From Pacificibacter marinus (GTDB taxonomy: Bacteria; Pseudomonadota; Alphaproteobacteria; Rhodobacterales; Rhodobacteraceae), in contig NZ_FNZV01000006.1 in NCBI RefSeq assembly GCF_900109555.1, forward strand, positions 124,001-188,000: a DNA stretch of 64,000 bases, in the 5' to 3' direction. A program made the translations under genes and the position numbers. Under the pieces are notes generated by a model. The model saw nothing but the letters and a program-made list of their open reading frames with translations. It did no database searches and was not told where the DNA came from. Shown one piece after another: positions 21,190-29,428 of this stretch. Within the stretch, counting starts at the first letter, position 1, and each line of letters starts with the position of its first letter.

Positions 21190-21293
21190 AGCCATGAAGT
21201 ACCTGCGACACGAGCGCCTGACAAGCCATGGAATGCTTGACAAAACACCGCAGGCGCGTGACCAACGTCCAAGCAATTTTGGAAGGGCGGATC

Positions 21294-22328
21294 ATGGCAG
21301 ACAAAACAATCCTCAAGGCACTGCGCGGCGAAACTCAGGCTGTGCCTCCTATTTGGATGATGCGTCAGGCTGGGCGTTACCTCCCGGAATATCGGGCCAC
21401 ACGTGCCCAAGCCGGCGACTTTTTAAAGCTGTGTTACAATCCTGACTTGGCCGCTGAAGTCACATTGCAACCGATCCGTCGCTTTGGCTTTGATGCCGCT
21501 ATTTTGTTTGCTGACATTTTGCTTTTGCCACAAGCCTTGGGCGCAGATCTTTGGTTTGTCACAGGAGAAGGCCCACGCCTGTCCACAATCACAAAGGAAG
21601 ACGATTTCGCGCCTATGAAGAGCAAAGACGACATCCACACCGTGCTTGGCCCTGTGTATGAAACCGTGAAAATCCTGTCGCGCGAGCTACCAAAAGAAAG
21701 CACACTCATCGGCTTTGCTGGCGCGCCGTGGACCGTTGCAACCTATATGATCGCAGGGCGCGGCACACCCGACCAAGGCCCTGCGCATGCTTTGCGGATG
21801 GGCAACAATGAGTTGTTTGAGAAAGTCATTGATTTGCTGACGGTCAGCACCATCGAGTATTTAGACATGCAAATCCAAGCGGGTGCTGAGGTTGTCAAAA
21901 TCTTTGACAGCTGGGCCGGTTCACTGAAAGGTGACGCATTCGAAAAGTACGCTGTTGCCCCTGCTCGCATCATCACGCAAGAACTGAAAAAACGCCATCC
22001 CGGCATTCCAATCATCGGGTTCCCACGCGAAGCAGGTGACGGCTATATCGGCTTTGCCAAAAAGACTGGCGTGGACTGTGTTGCGCTGGACAATTCCATT
22101 ACGCCTGAATGGGGCGCCAAGCATGTGCAGGTCGATGGCTGTGTTCAGGGCAATCTGAAATCATCCCATATGGTGACAGGTGGCCAAGAGCTGATCGACG
22201 GCGTGCGTCATGTGCGCGATACCTTTGCCAAAGGCCCACATATTTTCAATCTTGGTCACGGCATCACTCCAGATGCAAACCCCGATAACGTTTCCTTGAT
22301 GATCGAAACTTTGCGAGAGAACACATGA
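21294..22328 (+). CDS. hemE: Uroporphyrinogen III decarboxylase
   Basis: 344 residues from ATG 21294, with GGAAGGG about ten bases upstream; the in-frame extension to 21228 is not conserved-looking. The signature [17 protein letters not shown] (18-34) contains the substrate-binding arginines, and the [10 protein letters not shown] segment carries the catalytic aspartate. It converts uroporphyrinogen III to coproporphyrinogen III, the substrate of HemN. Overlaps the next gene by 4 bp. Confidence 0.95.
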
Positions 22329-22825
22329 TCAGAAACGCGCAAACATCAGACATGGACGCCATTGCCGCGCTGCAAGTCCAAAGTTGGCGCGCGGCCTACC
22401 AAGGCTTGCTATCAGACGACTATTTAGGCCAACCCGTCGTCGATGATTTGCGCGCCAAATGGGTGGGTATGGATGTGCCCAAAGACGATATTTTACTGGT
22501 ACATGAAACCCATGGCACGGTGAATGGGTTCATCTATGTGATGTGCTCTCGGACGCCTGCCTACATAGACAATCTGCATGTATCGCCCGATCAAAAGCGA
22601 TCTGGCATTGGCAAAGTCTTGATGCAAGAGGCAGCAAGGCGCTTGATAGCTCAAGGCGGCACATCTGTGTCGCTCACAGTGATCACTGACAACCTGCCTG
22701 CTGTGAACTTTTATGACAAGATGCGCGGTGAACGTGGCCCAGCACAAGATGAAAAGCTCTATGGAGACCCCGTCAAAACATACCCCGTGACATGGTATGA
22801 CCTGCACGCCTTGGCCGGACAATAA
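22325..22825 (+). CDS. GNAT-family N-acetyltransferase
   Basis: A 166-residue GCN5-related acetyltransferase. The beginning [28 protein letters not shown] is a common RimI-like start, and the acetyl-CoA pyrophosphate loop is visible in [22 protein letters not shown]. Its ATG overlaps the hemE stop, so it is co-translated with hemE; whether it has any haem-related role is unknown. Substrate cannot be predicted. Confidence 0.85.
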
Positions 22826-22939
22826 CCAAAACATATACCCCGCCGCGCCCACTATAAAAGCGCGAAAAGTGTCAAAGGCAGCCCCAAGAACTGTCGTAAT
22901 CAGAGATATCGTATTTTACCAACAAACGTGGTTTTATAA

Positions 22940-23011
22940 GTGAGTGCTCCATATTTTATAGGCGTTGATTTCGGAACTGGCAGTGCCCGCGCTGGTGTAA
23001 CCCCAGCATGA
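22940..23011 (+). pseudogene. N-terminal remnant of an FGGY-family carbohydrate kinase
   Basis: From a GTG at 22940 the frame reads VSAPYFIGVDFGTGSARAGV, then TPA and a stop. The part FIGVDFGTGSARAGV is the phosphate-binding start of ribulokinase/xylulokinase-type FGGY kinases. Only about 20 codons survive, and no continuation is recognisable before the glutathione-transferase gene. The rest of the 259-bp gap (22826-23084) holds nothing else I can assign. Confidence 0.6.
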
Positions 23012-23049
23012 CGCGGACGGCATCTTCGCTTGGATCACATGCCTTTTGG

Positions 23050-23075
23050 CGCCCCGAAGCTATCACCCCGGGGCG
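23050..23075. terminator. GC-rich hairpin after the glutathione-transferase gene
   Basis: CGCCCCG (23050-23056) and CGGGGCG (23069-23075) form a 7-bp stem with a 12-base loop, 9 bp beyond the stop of the minus-strand gene. No T-run follows, so it may be a weak or Rho-assisted terminator. Confidence 0.4.
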
Positions 23076-23084
23076 GACCAGATA

Positions 23085-23762
23085 TTATACGTTGACGTAG
23101 TTGCTTGGAAAGAGTGCGCGCAGCGATGCCTCATCCCCGACAGCCTTGAAGGTTTCGCCCTGTCCAATCAACTGTGCTTTTTCTACAGCTGGGCGCGCAT
23201 TGATAGCATCGAACCAACGTGCAACTTCGGGGAATTGCGCAAGGCCTTCGCCGCCTAACACACGCGCACCCCGTATTGCCCAACCCCATGCAGAAATATC
23301 GGCGATGGAATAGCTGTCACCCACGATGAATTCGCGGCCTTTCAGATGGTCGTTCAAGACCTGATAATGGCGTTCTGTTTCGCGCATAAACCGGTTCTTA
23401 GCATATGGAAGATCTTCTGGAGCCGCATAATGGAAGTGAACGTTTTGACCGGAAAATGGTCCAAGCCCAGATGCAATAAACAACAACCAAGACAGCATAG
23501 CGCCGCGATCTTCAGCTGCGCCACCCAACTTGCCAGTTTTATCGGCAAGGTACAGTAGGATTGCCGTGCTGTCGAAAACAACGGTGCCATCGTCATCAAT
23601 CGCTGGCACTTTGCCATTGGGGTTGATCGCACGAAATTCTGGTGTGTGTTGTTTGCCTGCGGCGGTATCAACAGGCACCAATTCATACGGCAGATCAGTT
23701 TCGGCTAAAAAGAGCGCGATCTTCAACGGGTTTGGTGTTGGATGGTAGTAAAATTTCAACAT
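23085..23762 (-). CDS. Glutathione S-transferase family protein
   Basis: A 225-residue cytosolic GST fold. The thioredoxin-like N-domain holds YYHPTPNPLKIALFL, the cis-proline loop NPNGKVPAI and the glutathione gamma-Glu contact DSTAILLYLAD; the helical C-domain has the N-capping motif SIADISAWGWA. The pattern resembles the YfcG/Ure2p-like (nu class) enzymes, which have disulfide reductase activity. It is 33 bp downstream of a YghU-type gene and probably co-transcribed with it and the TetR gene. Substrate unknown. Confidence 0.87.
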   Translation of the reverse strand: MLKFYYHPTPNPLKIALFLAETDLPYELVPVDTAAGKQHTPEFRAINPNGKVPAIDDDGTVVFDSTAILLYLADKTGKLGGAAEDRGAMLSWLLFIASGLGPFSGQNVHFHYAAPEDLPYAKNRFMRETERHYQVLNDHLKGREFIVGDSYSIADISAWGWAIRGARVLGGEGLAQFPEVARWFDAINARPAVEKAQLIGQGETFKAVGDEASLRALFPSNYVNV

Positions 23763-23795
23763 TTCATAGTCCTATTGGTCTTAAGGAAAGACAGG

Positions 23796-24659
23796 TCACT
23801 CTGCCGTTTGTGCGATCTTGTCTTGAGTTTTCGTGTCAAAATCTGACGCATCATGACGTTCGTGAAGTTGCTCGTTGAGAGGCCCGCGTGTACGGTTCAC
23901 AATGCGGCCACGTTGAACGGCTGGACGGGCAAGAATGTCATCTGCCCAACGGCGCAGGTTGACGTAGCTATCCACATCAAGGAACTCACCCGCATCATAG
24001 GCCTCACCCAGAACAAGATTGCCATACCAAGGCCACGTGAGCATGTCCGCAATCGTGTATTCGTCTCCGCCCAAAAACCGATTTTCGGCCAATTCTCGGT
24101 TCAACACATCCATTTGGCGCTTCGTTTCCATTGTGAAGCGGTTGATGGGGTATTCGAACTTTTCGGGTGCATAGGCATAAAAGTGACCAAAGCCGCCGCC
24201 CAGATATGGTGCAGAGCCCTGAAGCCAGAACACCCAGTTCATAATTTCAGTGCGTTGCGCAGTATCTGTAGGCAAAAAGGCCCCGAACTTTTCTGCGAGA
24301 TACAGCAAAATTGAACCGCTCTCAAAAACGCGCGTGCCCGTATCATGGTCCATCAGAGCCGGAATTTTAGAATTCGGGTTCACGGCCACAAAACCGGATG
24401 AAAACTGATCTCCATCGCCAATCTTGATCAGATGTGCGTCATATTCGGCACCCGTTTTGCCAAGGGCCAGAAGCTCTTCCAGCATGATGGTGACTTTTTG
24501 ACCATTAGGTGTGCCCATCGAGTAAAGCTGAAGCGGATGTTTCCCGACGGGCAGTTCCGCGTCAAAAGTAGCGCCCGCAACGGGCCGATTGGTCTTAGCC
24601 CAATCGCCGCCGCTTTCGGCATCCCATGTCCAGACCTTCGGGGGAGTGTAATCAGCCAT
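23796..24659 (-). CDS. yghU: YghU-type glutathione S-transferase/disulfide reductase
   Basis: 287 residues from ATG 24659, chosen for AAAGGA seven bases upstream; a TTG at 24677 is a less likely start. A YghU-like N-terminal extension (KVWTWDAESGGDWAKTNRP) precedes the thioredoxin-like domain with YSMGTPNGQKVTIMLEEL, NPNSKIPAL and ESGSILLYLAEKFG, and a helical domain with TIADMLTWPWYGNL. E. coli YghU is a nu-class GST with high glutathione-disulfide reductase activity. It follows the TetR gene by 14 bp, suggesting control by that regulator. Confidence 0.9.
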   Translation of the reverse strand: MADYTPPKVWTWDAESGGDWAKTNRPVAGATFDAELPVGKHPLQLYSMGTPNGQKVTIMLEELLALGKTGAEYDAHLIKIGDGDQFSSGFVAVNPNSKIPALMDHDTGTRVFESGSILLYLAEKFGAFLPTDTAQRTEIMNWVFWLQGSAPYLGGGFGHFYAYAPEKFEYPINRFTMETKRQMDVLNRELAENRFLGGDEYTIADMLTWPWYGNLVLGEAYDAGEFLDVDSYVNLRRWADDILARPAVQRGRIVNRTRGPLNEQLHERHDASDFDTKTQDKIAQTAE

Positions 24660-24673
24660 TGCATGTATTCCTT

Positions 24674-25324
24674 TCAAGTGGGTGTGACGCCAAACGATGT
24701 GGCAGTTATGAGGTGAGGGTGATCTGGTGCGTTAAGCCGCAAAGTTTCGACATCCCCTGCTAATTCTTCGGCAAGAGCAGCGATATCGGTTTGCTCTATT
24801 CCTAAATGCAGTTCAAAACGCAGGGCCGCTATTGTACCTTGGAACCGCCGTGCCAAATGTGTGCAGTCGGCATGGTCCGGCAGTTCGCCTTCAGCCTTTG
24901 CACGTTCAAACGCATCCGCAAAAGCCTGACGGATATGACCGAGGTGAATTTTAGCTTGATCAGCAATTTTTGGTTCAGTTGACGTCGCATCCACCAGTGT
25001 TTTCGTCAGCATACAAACCTGACACGCGACATCTTCAGGGGCAAGGCGCGCAAACCCACGTATGTATTCAGCCAGTCCTGTCAGAGGTGAATTTGCCTGT
25101 TCCATATGTGCGCGAAACCGGTTTATGGACCGCTGAACGTACAAACCCAGTGCGAGAAGGTAGAGATTTTCTTTGTTACAAAAAGCGCTATAAATGCTCC
25201 CCGGCTTCATTTTGAGCGCGCATTCCAAGTCTTTGAGGGAGGTCGCGTGATAGCCTTTTTCCCAAAAAATGAGCATTGCTGCTTGCAACGCCTCGTCTCG
25301 GTCAAATTTTGCAGGCCGGCTCAT
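24674..25324 (-). CDS. TetR/AcrR-family transcriptional regulator
   Basis: A 216-residue repressor. The N-terminal TetR helix-turn-helix spans roughly residues 8-52 (DEALQAAMLIFWEKGYHATSL, then KMKPGSIYSAFCNKENLYL). The C-terminal ligand domain contains cysteines (CQVCMLTKTL) that could sense electrophiles, as in the NemR-like subgroup; this is inference. It is first in the direction of transcription before yghU and the second GST gene, so it probably regulates them and itself. The 283-bp gap to the efflux gene (25325-25607) has no gene I can support. Confidence 0.87.
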   Translation of the reverse strand: MSRPAKFDRDEALQAAMLIFWEKGYHATSLKDLECALKMKPGSIYSAFCNKENLYLLALGLYVQRSINRFRAHMEQANSPLTGLAEYIRGFARLAPEDVACQVCMLTKTLVDATSTEPKIADQAKIHLGHIRQAFADAFERAKAEGELPDHADCTHLARRFQGTIAALRFELHLGIEQTDIAALAEELAGDVETLRLNAPDHPHLITATSFGVTPT

Positions 25325-25607
25325 AAGATATCTTTTCCAAAGGTCTCAAATTATCAGTATGAGTTAATGATCGATTACTCAACAACTTTCGAAGCCCCCA
25401 CAAACTTATGATGTAAAAAGCGGATATAAAACTGTGGCACACAGATGAGCTGAACAGCCGCAAGATTTGTAAACGCCTTGAAGCCGCTCACCGCACTTAG
25501 CGTATTTGACCGCTTCACGCAGAACGCGCGCTTTGCAGAGTCTGGAATGCCATGCAATGAAAAGACCACAGGCACACCAAAACCGACATTTACACGCAGT
25601 TTTTGGA

Positions 25608-26813
25608 TCAAGTTCGCTGTGGTAATTTCTGGGCGACAAAAGGACGATGCTTGGCGATCAACCACAACGTTGCGCAGGCAGTGCCTATAACAATCAGCAG
25701 TATGCCATAGTTGCGGATAAGATTGTGAGAGTTAGCAGAAACGATCTGCACGGCGCCAGCCCCCAAAAGGGTCCCGCTGAACTGGATCAGTGCCGCAGCC
25801 GATCCAGTATCTTTTGTTTGCTGATCTAACATCAAGTTCACGCCCGGCACACGCACAATGATAACACAAACGGTTGTCGTGGCAGCTACAGCAGCAAAGA
25901 CCCAAAGGGAATACCCTCCAAAGAACAGCATCGCGATACCGCCAATGACGATCATAGCGAAGCATCCCAGAATGACTGACTGCACTTGGATGATACGAGA
26001 CAACCGCAGATAAAGAAACGGCCCCAACGTGGCGCAAACGGCATTGAAAGCGAAAATGAAACTGAAGGTCTGCTCGGACATACCAAAGTCGTCGATATAA
26101 ACATAGGCGGCGATGCCAAGGAAGGCCATCAAACACATAGGCACCAAAGAGAACAGCATGAGCAGGTAGGCGAAATGTGGGTTCTTCAACACCACGCCCA
26201 AGCGGCTCCATGATTTTAGGATAGGGGCTGTAGATTTATCCACGACAGTTTCATGATAAAGCGCGACGAGCCATCCTGCAAAACAGGCAAACACAGCAAG
26301 CACGATAAACATTGCATGCCAAGATGCCACTTTTAGCAAGAACGCCCCAAGAACTGGCCCGACCATTGGCGCGATAATGACCAGAGACATAACGGTCGCC
26401 ATCATCCTCTCGCGCTCACGTCCGTCAAACATATCCTTGACGATAGAGGTGCCAACCACGGTAATTCCACCCCCCGCGAAACCTTGCACGATGCGAAAAG
26501 CGATTAGATGTTCAACACTATTAGCCAAAGCACATAAGAGACTGGACACGATATAAATTGCGAGAGCTGCAAAGAGTATTGGCTTGCGACCCATCCTTTC
26601 GCTCAACGGCCCCCAAAACAGCATGCCAACAGCAAAAGCGACCATATAGGCGCCAAGTGTTAGATTGATCATGCCATGGCTGGTCGCAAAAATTTCAGCC
26701 ATTTGTGGCAACGCAGGAAGGTAGAGATCCATAGTCAGCGGGGGAAAAGCACCAAGAATGACCAATAAAAACAATGTTCCTCGCTTACCCAATTTTGGCT
26801 GTTCGATATTCAT
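25608..26813 (-). CDS. Bcr/CflA-family multidrug efflux MFS transporter
   Basis: A 401-residue major facilitator with twelve predicted helices. The N-terminus has FPPLTMDLYLPALPQMAEIF, typical of the Bcr/CflA drug:H+ antiporters; the loop 2-3 motif is GPLSERMGRKPIL, and the helix-5 drug-antiporter pattern includes APMVGPVLGAFL. It probably exports antibiotics or sulfonamide-like compounds. Minus strand, 283 bp upstream of the TetR gene on the same strand. To its right begins the region of decayed mobile DNA. Confidence 0.87.
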   Translation of the reverse strand: MNIEQPKLGKRGTLFLLVILGAFPPLTMDLYLPALPQMAEIFATSHGMINLTLGAYMVAFAVGMLFWGPLSERMGRKPILFAALAIYIVSSLLCALANSVEHLIAFRIVQGFAGGGITVVGTSIVKDMFDGRERERMMATVMSLVIIAPMVGPVLGAFLLKVASWHAMFIVLAVFACFAGWLVALYHETVVDKSTAPILKSWSRLGVVLKNPHFAYLLMLFSLVPMCLMAFLGIAAYVYIDDFGMSEQTFSFIFAFNAVCATLGPFLYLRLSRIIQVQSVILGCFAMIVIGGIAMLFFGGYSLWVFAAVAATTTVCVIIVRVPGVNLMLDQQTKDTGSAAALIQFSGTLLGAGAVQIVSANSHNLIRNYGILLIVIGTACATLWLIAKHRPFVAQKLPQRT

Positions 26814-27095
26814 TTCAAAATGTCCTGTTTCGATGATCCGGCGAAAGCAAGGGGAATGGAAAATATATTACGCGCGGTAACGTCATTATTTGCCATATCT
26901 GAAGATGAATGACGACCCACAATTACTAAAGTGTTTTGAAAATAAAAGCTTAGCTTGCGATCATTTAGCCTTAGGGGGCAGGACCGCTTCCGGCTCCTCG
27001 CCTGTGATATGAACCCCAGACCTATGGCTACACTCGGCTGGGAGCCGTCATCTGCTGCGGCGGAGGCGAGCGCTTGGGGCGGCACGAAACCTTGA

Positions 27096-27545
27096 CAGGT
27101 CCACATAACCTACAACAAGCGTATCAGCCGCTTGGCGACGATACAGGAACATAAGATGATACTGCATGCTTTAACGCTTGGTGTTCCAGAAGAACGTCTT
27201 GCCAGTGCGTTGAACGTCAACATTAAAACAATGCAGGAAAAGCGCCGCCTCTTAGATGGCAGTTGCGGCGAGGCGGCAGACTTACTCAAAGACAAGCAGG
27301 TCGCATTGACTGGTTTTCGGATTCTCAAGAAGATGAAACCACTACGTCAGATCGAAGCGACTCAGTTGATGGTCGCGATGAACAAGTATACGATCAACTA
27401 CCCCTGTTCGTTGTTGGCTGCGACGCCAGAAAATCAGCCTATCGCCGGTGCGACACCTAAGAAAATCAAAGGTATATCCCGAGAACAACTCGAGCTCACG
27501 GAAACTGAGGCCGCAAACCTTGAGCGGGAGGTGTTCACGCCCTGA
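27096..27545 (+). pseudogene. RepB/ParB-like C-terminal domain protein, truncated at both ends
   Basis: The open frame starts after a stop at 27093-27095 and reads TYNKRISRLATIQEHKMIL, GVPEERLASALNV, KRRLLDGSCGEAADLLKDK, RILKKMKPLRQIEATQLMVAMN and LLAATPENQ. These are landmarks of the RepB plasmid-partition C-terminal domain found in Rhodobacterales plasmids and integrated elements. A full copy would be preceded by a ParB-like N-domain, absent here, and would continue past LEREV, where this copy stops at FTP. It is probably an inactive relic. The adjoining 26814-27095 contains nothing recognisable. Confidence 0.7.
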
Positions 27546-27827
27546 ACTTGCCGTTAGACGAAATGCAAATTGGGGACCCGAACCCTTTAAGCGCGGGGAC
27601 CGCAGGAGATGCCGCACTGTGGGGCGAATCAAGTGCGGTGTTGGGACGACGCGATCCCATTTGAACCCATCATGCCAGATCAAAAAATGGGTTCAGGCAA
27701 CACCATCAAGACGGCCTGCAATGTATAGCTCAAATTCTATCGTAGCACGCTCATGGGTCTCTTCCGCAGCACGATCTATAATGGACCAGTTCTTTTCGAC
27801 CTCACCCGCAAAATCGGACGCTTGGGA

Positions 27828-28010
27828 TCACAACATTTTACGAGCATAGATACTGAGGTAGTCAGTTGCCAGAAACACATTCAAAGCGGGTACACATCCG
27901 AACTTTCACCGAAATGCTTCCGAAAAATGGGCCAAATTAAAATTATTGGTCCCTCTTAACATTGCGTCTTCCAGAGCGAACAACAGCATTTGAATTGTTA
28001 ACCCGAACTC
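27828..28010 (-). pseudogene. Remnant of a TniB-like AAA ATPase (C-terminal end)
   Basis: On the minus strand the frame NEFGLTIQMLLFALEDAML, RGTNNFNLAHFSEAFR, stop, KFGCVPALNVFLATDYL, SIYARKML continues through one in-frame TGA. The layout (ALEDAML, T-LAHF-EAF, ..P.NVF) resembles the C-terminus of Tn7/Tn5053-type transposition ATPases. It lies directly after a transposase remnant in the same direction, as expected for a tniA-tniB order, with most of both genes deleted. Assignment by resemblance only. Bases 27546-27827 hold a short open stretch (VEKNWSIIDRAAEETHERAT) that I do not recognise. Confidence 0.45.
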
Positions 28011-28014
28011 ATTT

Positions 28015-28386
28015 TGCTCCTGCATGAACAAGCCGAAGCACCAAGATCGGGCGCTTCATCAGAGTTGGGCGTAACAGCCAGTCGCATACCGAGCACGCAA
28101 CGGGTCACCGCATCGATCGCAAAATATAGCCAACGCCCGCCGCGTGACAAAGATGCAAGCTGTTCAGCAGACAAGCGATCTAACGCACCTTTATGACGAG
28201 AATGGCAATCAGATCAACATTCCACTCATCGTTCTCAATACGCTCCAATGGATAGCTCACATCGATTCCATCTACGAAAAGCATGAACTTGCGGTTGGCT
28301 GCCTCTACTCCATAACGTTGCGCGTGCGTCGTATATGTTCGGATCGCAACGATTGATGAACAATCGCAAGCCCTAAACGAATACAA
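28015..28386 (-). pseudogene. DDE transposase/integrase fragment (TniA/Mu-type), frameshifted
   Basis: Minus-strand frame 1 reads YGVEAANRKFMLFVDGIDV then PLERIENDEWNVDLIAIL. Near 28197 the frame shifts and continues GALDRLSAEQLASL, GGRWLYFAIDAVTRCVLGM, RLAVTPNSDEAPDL. The D of ENDEWNVDL or FAIDAVTR would belong to the RNase-H-like catalytic core of Tni/Mu/IS481-type transposases. N- and C-terminal parts are missing and the frame is broken, so it cannot be active. It runs straight into the ATPase-like remnant, implying an internal deletion. Confidence 0.6.
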
Positions 28387-28399
28387 CGTCCCAACAGGA

Positions 28400-28636
28400 T
28401 GAGGCCCAGTCCGTATTGCATTACCATATTGTTGAAAAACAGGACTTCGAATCTCAAAAAACTTATCCTTTCAAGGCCTTATCCAACCTGAAGGGGAGTT
28501 AAGTAATATCGTGCACCCAGGAAGATATGGATGAAGTAAATAATTTTTATTATCAAAATGTTAATGCATAAATATTCAATAATATTATGCACTTTTCTAT
28601 GAAAAACGAAGCATGCGGTTTTCACAAAGCCCTCTC
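28400..28636. other. AT-rich gap inside the decayed mobile region
   Basis: No gene seen. The centre (about 28535-28610) is far richer in A and T than its surroundings, with runs such as AATAATTTTTATTATC, consistent with foreign or decaying DNA. It occupies the place where the catalytic N-terminal domain of the following recombinase should be. Confidence 0.5.
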
Positions 28637-29342
28637 TTAGATTGGGGCATCACTCGCCGCAAAGGTCACCACGGGGCGCTGATCTCACTAGAAACCTTTG
28701 AGCGCGCCGAAACGGAACCAAAATGGTCCTGCCCGCACAGACATCAGCAGCGACTTCCCGCTGCGTGGCGCGGCGCTCTGCGCCGACTGTGACAAGCCAC
28801 TGACGTCTCGCTGGTCGCGCAGTCATACGGCAAGCGCAATCCGTATTTCTGGTGCCGCACCAAAGGCTGCGAGAGCTTCCGCAAAAATATCCGCGCTGAA
28901 AAGGTCGATGTCGTGAAGGCCATGCTGACCCAAGCTTGTGCGCAACGTTTGACACAAGCCGATGCGATAAAAGCTGAGCTGACTCGTCAAATGGCAAACC
29001 GACAAACAACTCGACGCGCTGTTGGCCCGCATCGTTGAAACCAACAACTCCACCGTCATCGCTGCCTATGAGACGAAGATCACCAAGCTAGAGCAAGAAA
29101 AATTGGTTCCGATTGAAAAGCGGGAGAAAAAATCCACATCAAAGCGCACATCCGAGCAAATTTTCGAACTCGCGGTAAAATTCCTGTCAAACCCTTGGAA
29201 TATATGGTAAATTATAGACCTAACACTCAAGAAAACAGTGCTCAGATTGGCATTTAAAGCCCCATTGACCTATGATCGCCAAAATGGATTTCTAACCCCG
29301 CAAACGTCTGTAATCTTTAGGCTTTTGGAGGGTTTTTACTGA
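28637..29342 (+). pseudogene. Large serine recombinase remnant, multiple frameshifts
   Basis: Pieces of a site-specific serine recombinase in three frames: WGITRRKGHHGALISLETFE; then SSDFPLRGAALCADCDKPLTS; then KRNPYFWCRTKGCESFRKN, completing a CxxC...C...C zinc ribbon; then DALLARIVETNNSTVIAAYE and FELAVKFLSNPWNIW. An in-frame TAA follows, and then KKTVLRLAFKAPLTYDRQNG and LLEGFY end at 29342. This order (recombinase domain, zinc ribbon, coiled coil, C-terminal tail) is the family architecture, but the resolvase catalytic domain is missing. It stops nine bases from the 3' end of tRNA-Arg. Confidence 0.8.
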
Positions 29343-29351
29343 AAAGTAAAA

Positions 29352-29428
29352 TGGTGCACCCGAGAGGATTCGAACCTCTGACCCCCTGATTCGTAGTCAG
29401 GTACTCTATCCAGCTGAGCTACGGGTGC
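29352..29428 (-). tRNA. tRNA-Arg (anticodon ACG)
   Basis: On the minus strand 77 bases fold as a cloverleaf: acceptor GCACCCG/CGGGTGC, D-arm with AGCTCAGCTGGATAGAG, anticodon stem CCTGA/TCAGG with loop CTACGAA (anticodon ACG, normally deaminated to ICG), T-arm GGTTCGAATCC, and an encoded CCA end. It borders the recombinase remnant at its 3' side. Confidence 0.97.

Follow-up and report, generated by a model that had tools for sequence, protein, structure and literature searches.

We analysed a stretch of 64,000 nucleotides of the Pacificibacter marinus contig NZ_FNZV01000006.1 (the window, to whose positions all coordinates refer), and within it a patch of about 2.5 kb (26814-29352) that is made of decayed mobile DNA and runs up to an intact tRNA-Arg(ACG) gene. 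The piece nearest the tRNA is what remains of a large serine recombinase, and the main subject of this work is the family to which it belongs, whose members appear to insert at the ends of many different tRNA genes. The features, with the second copy of the recombinase end found elsewhere in the genome, are as follows:

27067-27106, no strand: dispersed repeat of 40 bp, with copies 84-95% identical at many loci of the genus; abuts the truncated RepB
27096-27545, plus strand: RepB-type plasmid partitioning protein truncated at both ends (PF07506 and the intact RepB of locus L059)
27831-28010, minus strand: C-terminal tail of a TniB/TnsC-like ATPase (tblastn with the TniB of locus L042, E = 4e-7)
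27962-28323, minus strand: fragment of a TniA/TnsB-like DDE transposase in two frames (tblastn with the TniA of L042, E = 1e-12)
28501-28640, no strand: AT-rich gap (30% GC versus 51.7% for the window)
28643-29342, plus strand: large serine recombinase pseudogene, middle part to C-terminus (45% identity to L048; 51% to L056, C-terminal part)
28956-29377, plus strand: stretch with a second copy on contig C32 of the same genome (422 bp, 95% identical, frameshift in common)
29343-29351, no strand: nine-base spacer from the recombinase stop to the tRNA, which would correspond to the position of the conserved element end in relatives
29352-29357, minus strand: TGGTGC at the CCA end of the tRNA; the crossover core predicted from intact relatives
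29370-29374, minus strand: TCGAA of the T-loop, 18 bp from TGG (+18); zinc-ribbon-domain motif predicted for the bacterial attachment site (attB)
29352-29428, minus strand: intact tRNA-Arg(ACG) (ARAGORN and Rfam, 68.3 bits)
C32 34965-35384 in genome G000 (L036 9965-10384): the C32 copy, a recombinase end with a piece of tRNA-Arg

The patch itself is ordinary decay, as an earlier note on this DNA had correctly seen. Its doubly truncated RepB, its frameshifted DDE transposase fused by deletion to a TniB-like tail, its AT-rich gap and its serine recombinase ending nine bases from the tRNA were all found as described, and the similarity to element families appears by profile for RepB and by tblastn with intact relatives for the Tni and recombinase fragments. 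Profile searches (Pfam, PHROGs and NCBIfam) on ten separate open pieces of the patch gave a firm identity for RepB only: the open reading frame (ORF) at 27096-27545 matches the RepB domain PF07506 with an E-value of 1.9e-26 over profile positions 2-138 of 185, and corresponds to residues 131-273 of the 333 residues of the L059 RepB, at 49% identity. The Tni fragments obtained no meaningful E-value in these searches, and their identity is drawn from the intact L042 proteins, which Pfam recognizes as rve/Mu_C (TniA) and TniB. Residues 279-320 and 327-394 of the 748 of TniA align to 28323-28198 and 28174-27962, in two frames, and residues 409-470 of the 481 of TniB align to 28010-27831 in a third; thus the 3' half of TniA and most of TniB were lost at a junction near 28000. 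Parts of these two genes are all that was identified of the transposon in the patch, with no TniQ and no transposon end sequence. The 40-bp repeat ends where the RepB homology starts, and is possibly an insertion-sequence end. The recombinase pseudogene has at least one frameshift (between ~28910 and 29023) and two in-frame stops, at 28790 and 29208, where the earlier note had mentioned one; its own stop codon occupies 29340-29342. It shows no match to the N-terminal 266 residues of its intact relative, and the resolvase catalytic domain PF00239 was not found in the window copy.

What the earlier note had missed is why the recombinase should end at the tRNA: most probably because its family inserts there. 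The intact homologue in Celeribacter ethanolicus (L048/L212) extends for 524 residues before its frame enters the tRNA, and ends at the same tRNA-Arg(ACG); other relatives of the genus that we examined end at tRNA-Arg(CCG) (L057), at the 3' half of tRNA-Arg(CCG) (L056) and at a tRNA-Tyr copy (L058). We then compared the L048 protein with 295 genomes of the family (about one per genus) at an E-value of 1e-60 or better, and obtained 66 homologue places in 49 genomes. A complete, convergent tRNA lies 8-54 bp past the end of the alignment in 60 of the 66, with 16 different anticodons represented. The chance of such an adjacency, computed with 45 tRNA genes per genome, is ~0.00075 per gene. Five of the remaining six (L094, L096, L106, L109 and L112) carry a tRNA 3'-like fragment, judged by eye. 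A follow-up scan with a trimmed protein gave ten loci, eight of them with a complete tRNA at the end, one (L220) stopping at the contig edge and one (L219) carrying a Tni-like end in place of the tRNA; L212, L219 and L221 belong to C. ethanolicus, the genome of L048. The bases before the tRNA are conserved as well, with A at -9 in 58 of 65 cases, G at -6 in 53 and A at -1 in 56, and the tRNA end reads TGG in all 65.

The intact proteins have the architecture of large serine integrases. The catalytic domain PF00239 is found in L048 (E = 9.2e-26) and L216 (E = 3.9e-25), as is the zinc beta-ribbon PF13408 (1.9e-9 and 3.1e-8), and the family's match in the PDB is the catalytic domain of TP901-1 integrase. 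The recombinase domain PF07508 scores 20.3 bits in L048, versus a cut-off of 21.1, and has no match in L216; at least six clade members lie above the cut-off. The NCBIfam CcrB scores of the family proteins (64 and 70.6 bits) fall far short of the cut-off of 900 bits. Among plasmids we found one partial match at 1e-40 or better, and among phage records none at 1e-30. As a control, we searched PF07508 in 14 chosen genomes, with 24 matches listed in 13 of them. The clade members listed there all end at a tRNA or a tRNA 3' half (6/6), and of the 18 other recombinases five end at a tRNA (two at tRNA-Met and three at tRNA-Ser, one of the latter with no stop inside the locus) and 13 at none. Ending at a tRNA is therefore not general among such recombinases, and it also occurs outside this clade. 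The number of clade members in this control is too low, since several survey members from these genomes are not among the matches listed. Distant serine recombinases, 24-25% identical where similarity is detectable, end at or overlap tRNA-Met (L267, L270) or tRNA-Ser (L274, L279, L286).

This association and the exact ends given below lend good support to the conclusion that one clade of serine integrases targets the ends of many tRNA genes. The target has changed repeatedly within the clade. In a quick tree built from 52 proteins, target tRNAs do cluster (15 changes for 8 groups, versus 30.2 in shuffles), and sister proteins differ in target, for example L084 at Leu(CAG) and L086 at Thr(GGT), with a Shimodaira-Hasegawa-like approximate likelihood ratio (SH-aLRT) support of 100, and likewise L083 at Arg(CCG) and L076 at Arg(ACG). 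Some branches of this tree are long, which makes deep placements unsure. Fetching tRNA-Thr(GGT) loci by the tRNA and its other flank, we observed a clade recombinase beside the tRNA in 2 of 30.

The exact ends were obtained from four closely related elements at tRNA-Thr(GGT), whose hosts belong to four families: Henriciella (L215), Thalassospira profundimaris WP0211 (L216), a Pseudophaeobacter metagenome-assembled genome (L217) and Iodidimonas muriae (L218). At the left end, the starting points of pairwise homology (92-96%) agree to within two bases among the four, with unrelated flanks beyond, and the homology continues in blocks up to the tRNA. All four carry at both ends the 7-bp direct repeat ATGGTGC, which includes the CCA end of the tRNA, and they measure 24,292, 24,999, 23,425 and 30,059 bp from core to core (in the order given above). 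At the right end, identity between the elements ceases after TGGTGC, and in each host the acceptor stem pairs 7/7 and the T stem 5/5. The stems are therefore the host's own, which places the crossover at the tRNA terminus and means that these four elements carry no tRNA fragment. No second copy of 30-45 bp, the classical tRNA-fragment far end of Islander-type islands, was found in ten joined 40-kb regions, and queries with whole tRNAs (Tyr in 8 genomes, Thr in 10, Arg in 12) returned few 3'-end fragments and none that closes an element: one in G006 (Tyr), one on another contig of G082, and the C32 piece (both Arg). A 45-bp tRNA repeat in G022 was considered as a far end and rejected because the adjacent DNA, judged by eye, looks like the end of a gene for a tyrosine integrase. 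The Thalassospira element lies beside three tandem tRNA-Thr(GGT) genes (L216 11514-11794).

The Thalassospira element was examined gene by gene, and by its sequence it appears to be of the integrative mobilizable kind. It codes for a MobA/VirD2-like relaxase (PF03432, E = 6.7e-15), a type IV secretion system coupling protein (PF02534) and an ArdC-type protein, together with a restriction-modification protein of MmeI type and a protein with an ABC-three-component domain; the 12 ORFs scanned, of 23 listed, include no tyrosine integrase and no transfer protein beyond the coupling protein. Relaxase homologues occur in 9 of 15 further regions. In six elements (G146, G077, G044, G273, G288 and G022b) the predicted left core lies 368-440 bp before the relaxase start, as a run of 6-10 bp that contains TGG and matches perfectly the end of the element's own target tRNA (TGGTGC for Thr, TGGTGG for Tyr, TGGTGGA for Ala and TGGCGGAG for Ser). 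Pairwise homology between G044, G077 and G273 begins at most 11 bp from their left cores. When the cores of seven elements were cross-matched, the own core was clearest in G077 (9 versus at most 7), G273 (8 versus at most 6) and G022b (10 versus at most 5).

How could one clade of enzymes use so many tRNA genes? In all ten elements compared, the tRNA carries T[CT]GAA, the T-loop sequence, at +18 from TGG, a spacing that tRNA geometry demands. In the left arm of nine of the same ten elements the same motif stands at +23, where the background is 75 of 10,377 TGG positions (0.7%); since the first four elements are close copies and G044 and G077 are also close, about seven lineages are independent. 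Rutherford and colleagues (PMC3783163) report that the zinc-ribbon motif of LI integrase is closer to the centre by 5 bp in attB than it is in attP, the attachment site of the phage, and that such motifs can be recognized in the two sites of every system compared except one. The match of 18 versus 23 to this published shift is our main ground for proposing that the integrases read the T-loop, which they probably recognize. The shift was seen on one arm, the arm analysed, and the core is mostly 6-10 bp.

We therefore propose the following model. Element and chromosome would be joined at a short core to which the CCA end of the tRNA belongs, as alignment shows for four elements and as we infer for nine more; the tRNA would stay whole although the element brings no tRNA fragment, which is what the four display. 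To judge from the spacing, the zinc-ribbon domain of the integrase would find its attB motif in the T-loop of the tRNA gene, and the T-loop sequence would recur 5 bp farther out in the attP arm. This mechanism is moderately supported by the sequence comparisons. Applied to the window, the model suggests that the 3' side of tRNA-Arg(ACG) is an insertion hotspot, now decayed. Its debris represents three kinds of element or more: an element whose serine integrase targets tRNA genes, a Tn7-like (Tni) transposon, and a ParB-RepB cassette accompanied by a different type of recombinase. The earlier note had at least two elements inserted and decayed beside the tRNA; this part stands, and the evidence points to at least three kinds, because the intact relatives of the fragments are found in different company. 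In L059, for instance, the intact relative of RepB has as its neighbours a ParB/RepB protein and a different type of serine recombinase. The transposon and ParB-RepB remains lie farther from the tRNA; their homology is observed, and the manner and order of their arrival are conjectural. We regard the whole, that is, a decayed hotspot, integration at the tRNA end and recognition of the T-loop, as the best explanation, with a probability of roughly 80%. We also incline, with rather less assurance, to the broader view that a widespread alphaproteobacterial group of integrases uses the T-loop as the zinc-ribbon half-site of attB with crossover at the CCA end, so that any tRNA gene is a potential target and targets are switched through a core of a few bases.

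Several observations weigh against this explanation. One of the 66 survey homologues, L066, has no tRNA at its end, and the survey query held 14 residues derived from antisense tRNA (the later alignments and the follow-up scan used the trimmed protein, whose trimming accounts for the commonest alignment-to-tRNA distance, 8 bp). The +23 motif of G288 has one mismatch. Three more elements (G022a, G290 and G144) have a spacing of exactly 23, giving 12 of 13 in total, and these came out of a search for that very motif, with spacings of 18-24 allowed; in the same search a second relaxase in G146, a fourteenth candidate that we left uncounted, gave a spacing of 25 only. The left cores of G146 and G288 were tied with another position and picked by distance, and G022a has in common with its tRNA only TGG and GC at +4/+5. 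In four of the seven rows of the core cross-match another core ties with or beats the own core: a second Thr core does as well for the Thalassospira element, G146 and G288 are tied with other cores, and two others do better for G044. A search of 275 genomes of the family found no empty site: among the matches listed, the joined-flank query aligned from the tRNA on and no more than 18 bp past the junction. In 30 fetched loci the flank was not found either, save for one marginal match of 21 residues. The window copy has no recognizable left element end. Finally, the model offers no explanation for the C32 copy, in which two tRNA-Arg types are joined in a chimera: its tRNA piece is of ACG type for 26 bp and then of CCG type, with the switch inside the T-arm and a mismatched T-stem, and a complete tRNA-Arg(CCG) is present on C18.

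This chimera also bears on the idea that the recombinase fragment of the window was copied from C32, or the reverse, by ordinary recombination after the element had died, in which case its position at the tRNA would tell nothing about targeting. The 95% identity over 422 bp, with a frameshift in common, and the passage from one tRNA type to the other inside the T-arm would fit such copying. The window copy has an in-frame stop, at 29208, that the one on C32 lacks. However, both copies abut tRNA-Arg sequence, as do L048, L056 and L057 (L058 abuts tRNA-Tyr), and an intact homologue stands at the same tRNA in C. ethanolicus, so that we consider this reading doubtful. The C32 recombinase copy is joined in frame to an upstream coding sequence (L036 10385-10600, minus strand).

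We likewise judge it unlikely that the patch is a single composite island, which decayed after one entry. Mobile elements are often nested, and the RepB, Tni and recombinase fragments do lie within 2.5 kb of one tRNA, but their intact relatives keep apart, RepB with ParB and the other recombinase in L059, TniA with TniB in L042, and the tRNA-type recombinase with a relaxase. A further possibility is that the serine recombinases are mere passengers of tyrosine-integrase islands, which would be the ones to choose tRNA genes. Tyrosine integrases (PF00589) adjoin the recombinase and the tRNA copy or half in L058 and L056, and the rejected G022 repeat, 48.6 kb away, sits beside an apparent tyrosine-integrase C-terminus (by eye). 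Yet the 12 Pfam-scanned ORFs of the Thalassospira element, of 23 listed, contain no such enzyme, tblastn with two tyrosine integrases found nothing in the four element regions, the direct repeat is of 7 bp and not a tRNA half, no 3' fragment occurs within 40 kb in ten loci, and the T-loop spacing is that expected for a serine integrase. This makes the passenger role highly improbable.

The surroundings of tRNA-Arg(ACG) were compared in 18 loci out of 19 relatives of the genus (G017 left out), reaching on the patch side from 3.9 kb (L048) to ~10 kb. On the other side of the tRNA a histidine kinase adjoins it in all 18, and the next two genes follow in 17. On the 3' side no protein family is common to more than 8 of 19 loci (window included), and no conserved neighbour was found there in 30 loci of the family (window included, at most 1.5 kb each). 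The earlier note had proposed comparison with an uninterrupted locus as a way to define the island's ends; the 3' side varies among the 18 relatives, and the comparison did not define them. A conserved far-side neighbour of tRNA-Arg(ACG) or tRNA-Thr(GGT) that would mark an empty site was also sought and not found. The genes to the left of the patch, from hemE to a major facilitator superfamily gene (window 21228-26813), were not found in any of these 18 loci; in the genomes that have hemE on the contig of the tRNA (G003, G006, G008 and G018), the coordinates of the two are 0.87-3.6 Mb apart. Given the variable 3' side and the absence of the left genes, the patch may also mark a rearrangement junction, and we suggest that a rearrangement joined the hemE and tRNA-Arg(ACG) regions here.

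In 10 of the 18 relatives (L038, L039, L041, L042, L043, L047, L050, L052, L053 and L055) a Tni-type end can be seen by eye ~9-12 bp past the tRNA CCA, and Pfam confirmed two TniQ, one TniA and one TniB from these tRNA-Arg(ACG) loci of the genus. In the group of L038, L039, L041, L043 and L047 a transposon-like end is conserved ~10 bp past the CCA, and a TniQ-type ORF (broken in L038) begins ~140 bp past the tRNA. The TniA and TniB clusters on the tRNA 3' side have L042 and L055 as their only members. In L219 of C. ethanolicus, a second recombinase end at ~957-1000 is followed by a Tni-like end 4 bp before the expected tRNA (by eye).

The elements described here resemble several known systems. 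With the large serine integrases A118/LI, phiC31, Bxb1 and TP901-1 they have in common the resolvase catalytic and zinc-ribbon domains, the short core and the 5-bp motif shift (PMC3783163); the difference is that the present family targets the 3' ends of many different tRNA genes. Integrative mobilizable elements with site-specific serine recombinases have been described as lying within genes that they disrupt (PMC5704250), and streptococcal serine integrases have protein genes as their targets, rumA among them (PMC4701971). At tRNA genes, serine recombinases have been called rare, the cases given being eight actinomycete integrative and conjugative elements (AICEs) of Mycobacterium at tRNA-Leu and phage phiRSM1 at the 3' end of tRNA-Ser (PMC3218068). 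These are alike in target class; compared by description only, they use one tRNA each, and that account mentions no T-loop or spacing rule. The target class thus has precedents, and the Islander statement that none is known reflects an incomplete record. Together with our distant recombinases at tRNA-Met and tRNA-Ser, these reports suggest that the habit is older or arose more than once. The Dehalococcoides islands have a CcrB-like recombinase, DsiB, of ~540 residues at the boundary of an RNA gene (transfer-messenger RNA), as here, and differ in the single-copy target ssrA, in a second small serine recombinase (DsiA) and in a direct repeat of ssrA at the boundaries (PMC3146451). Tyrosine-integrase islands of Islander type also target tRNA genes and leave them functional, whereas their attP includes a piece of the tRNA and a displaced fragment remains after insertion (PMC4383910), in place of the core of mostly 6-10 bp and the unrelated enzyme family observed here. 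Finally, Tn7-like transposons that home beside tRNAs, the CRISPR-associated transposons (CAST) I-B2 and I-D, have relatives of TniA, TniB and TniQ just downstream of the tRNA (PMC10293859), as in the relatives of the genus; the window shows fragments of TniA and TniB only.

Across the literature on serine integrases and their sites, Tn7-like elements and half-sites (subscription papers being mostly outside this coverage), we did not find the present family or T-loop recognition. The relevant passages of PMC4701971 and PMC13386836 give no tRNA case for serine integrases, a study of mycobacterial prophages reports tRNA sites for tyrosine integrases (PMC10654092), and the word tRNA is absent from the main text of Durrant 2022. 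The TIGER/Islander announcement of 2025 does not split its tRNA sites by integrase family (PMC12424338), and its database may therefore hold such cases. What is new here is the breadth of tRNA targets, the exact ends and the T-loop proposal. Islander limited its search to tyrosine integrases, tRNA genes being held to be their domain in its description (PMC4383910), and islands of the kind described here would thus be missed by it.

For the window, the model accounts for the patch as debris from repeated hits of unrelated mobile elements on the 3' end of one tRNA. If the reading of a widespread group is correct, the targeted tRNA would never be interrupted. If the T-loop is indeed what is read, a serine integrase would have a simple route to many safe and conserved landing sites, the switching of targets would be readable from sequence, and tRNA ends would be natural attB sites for genome engineering.

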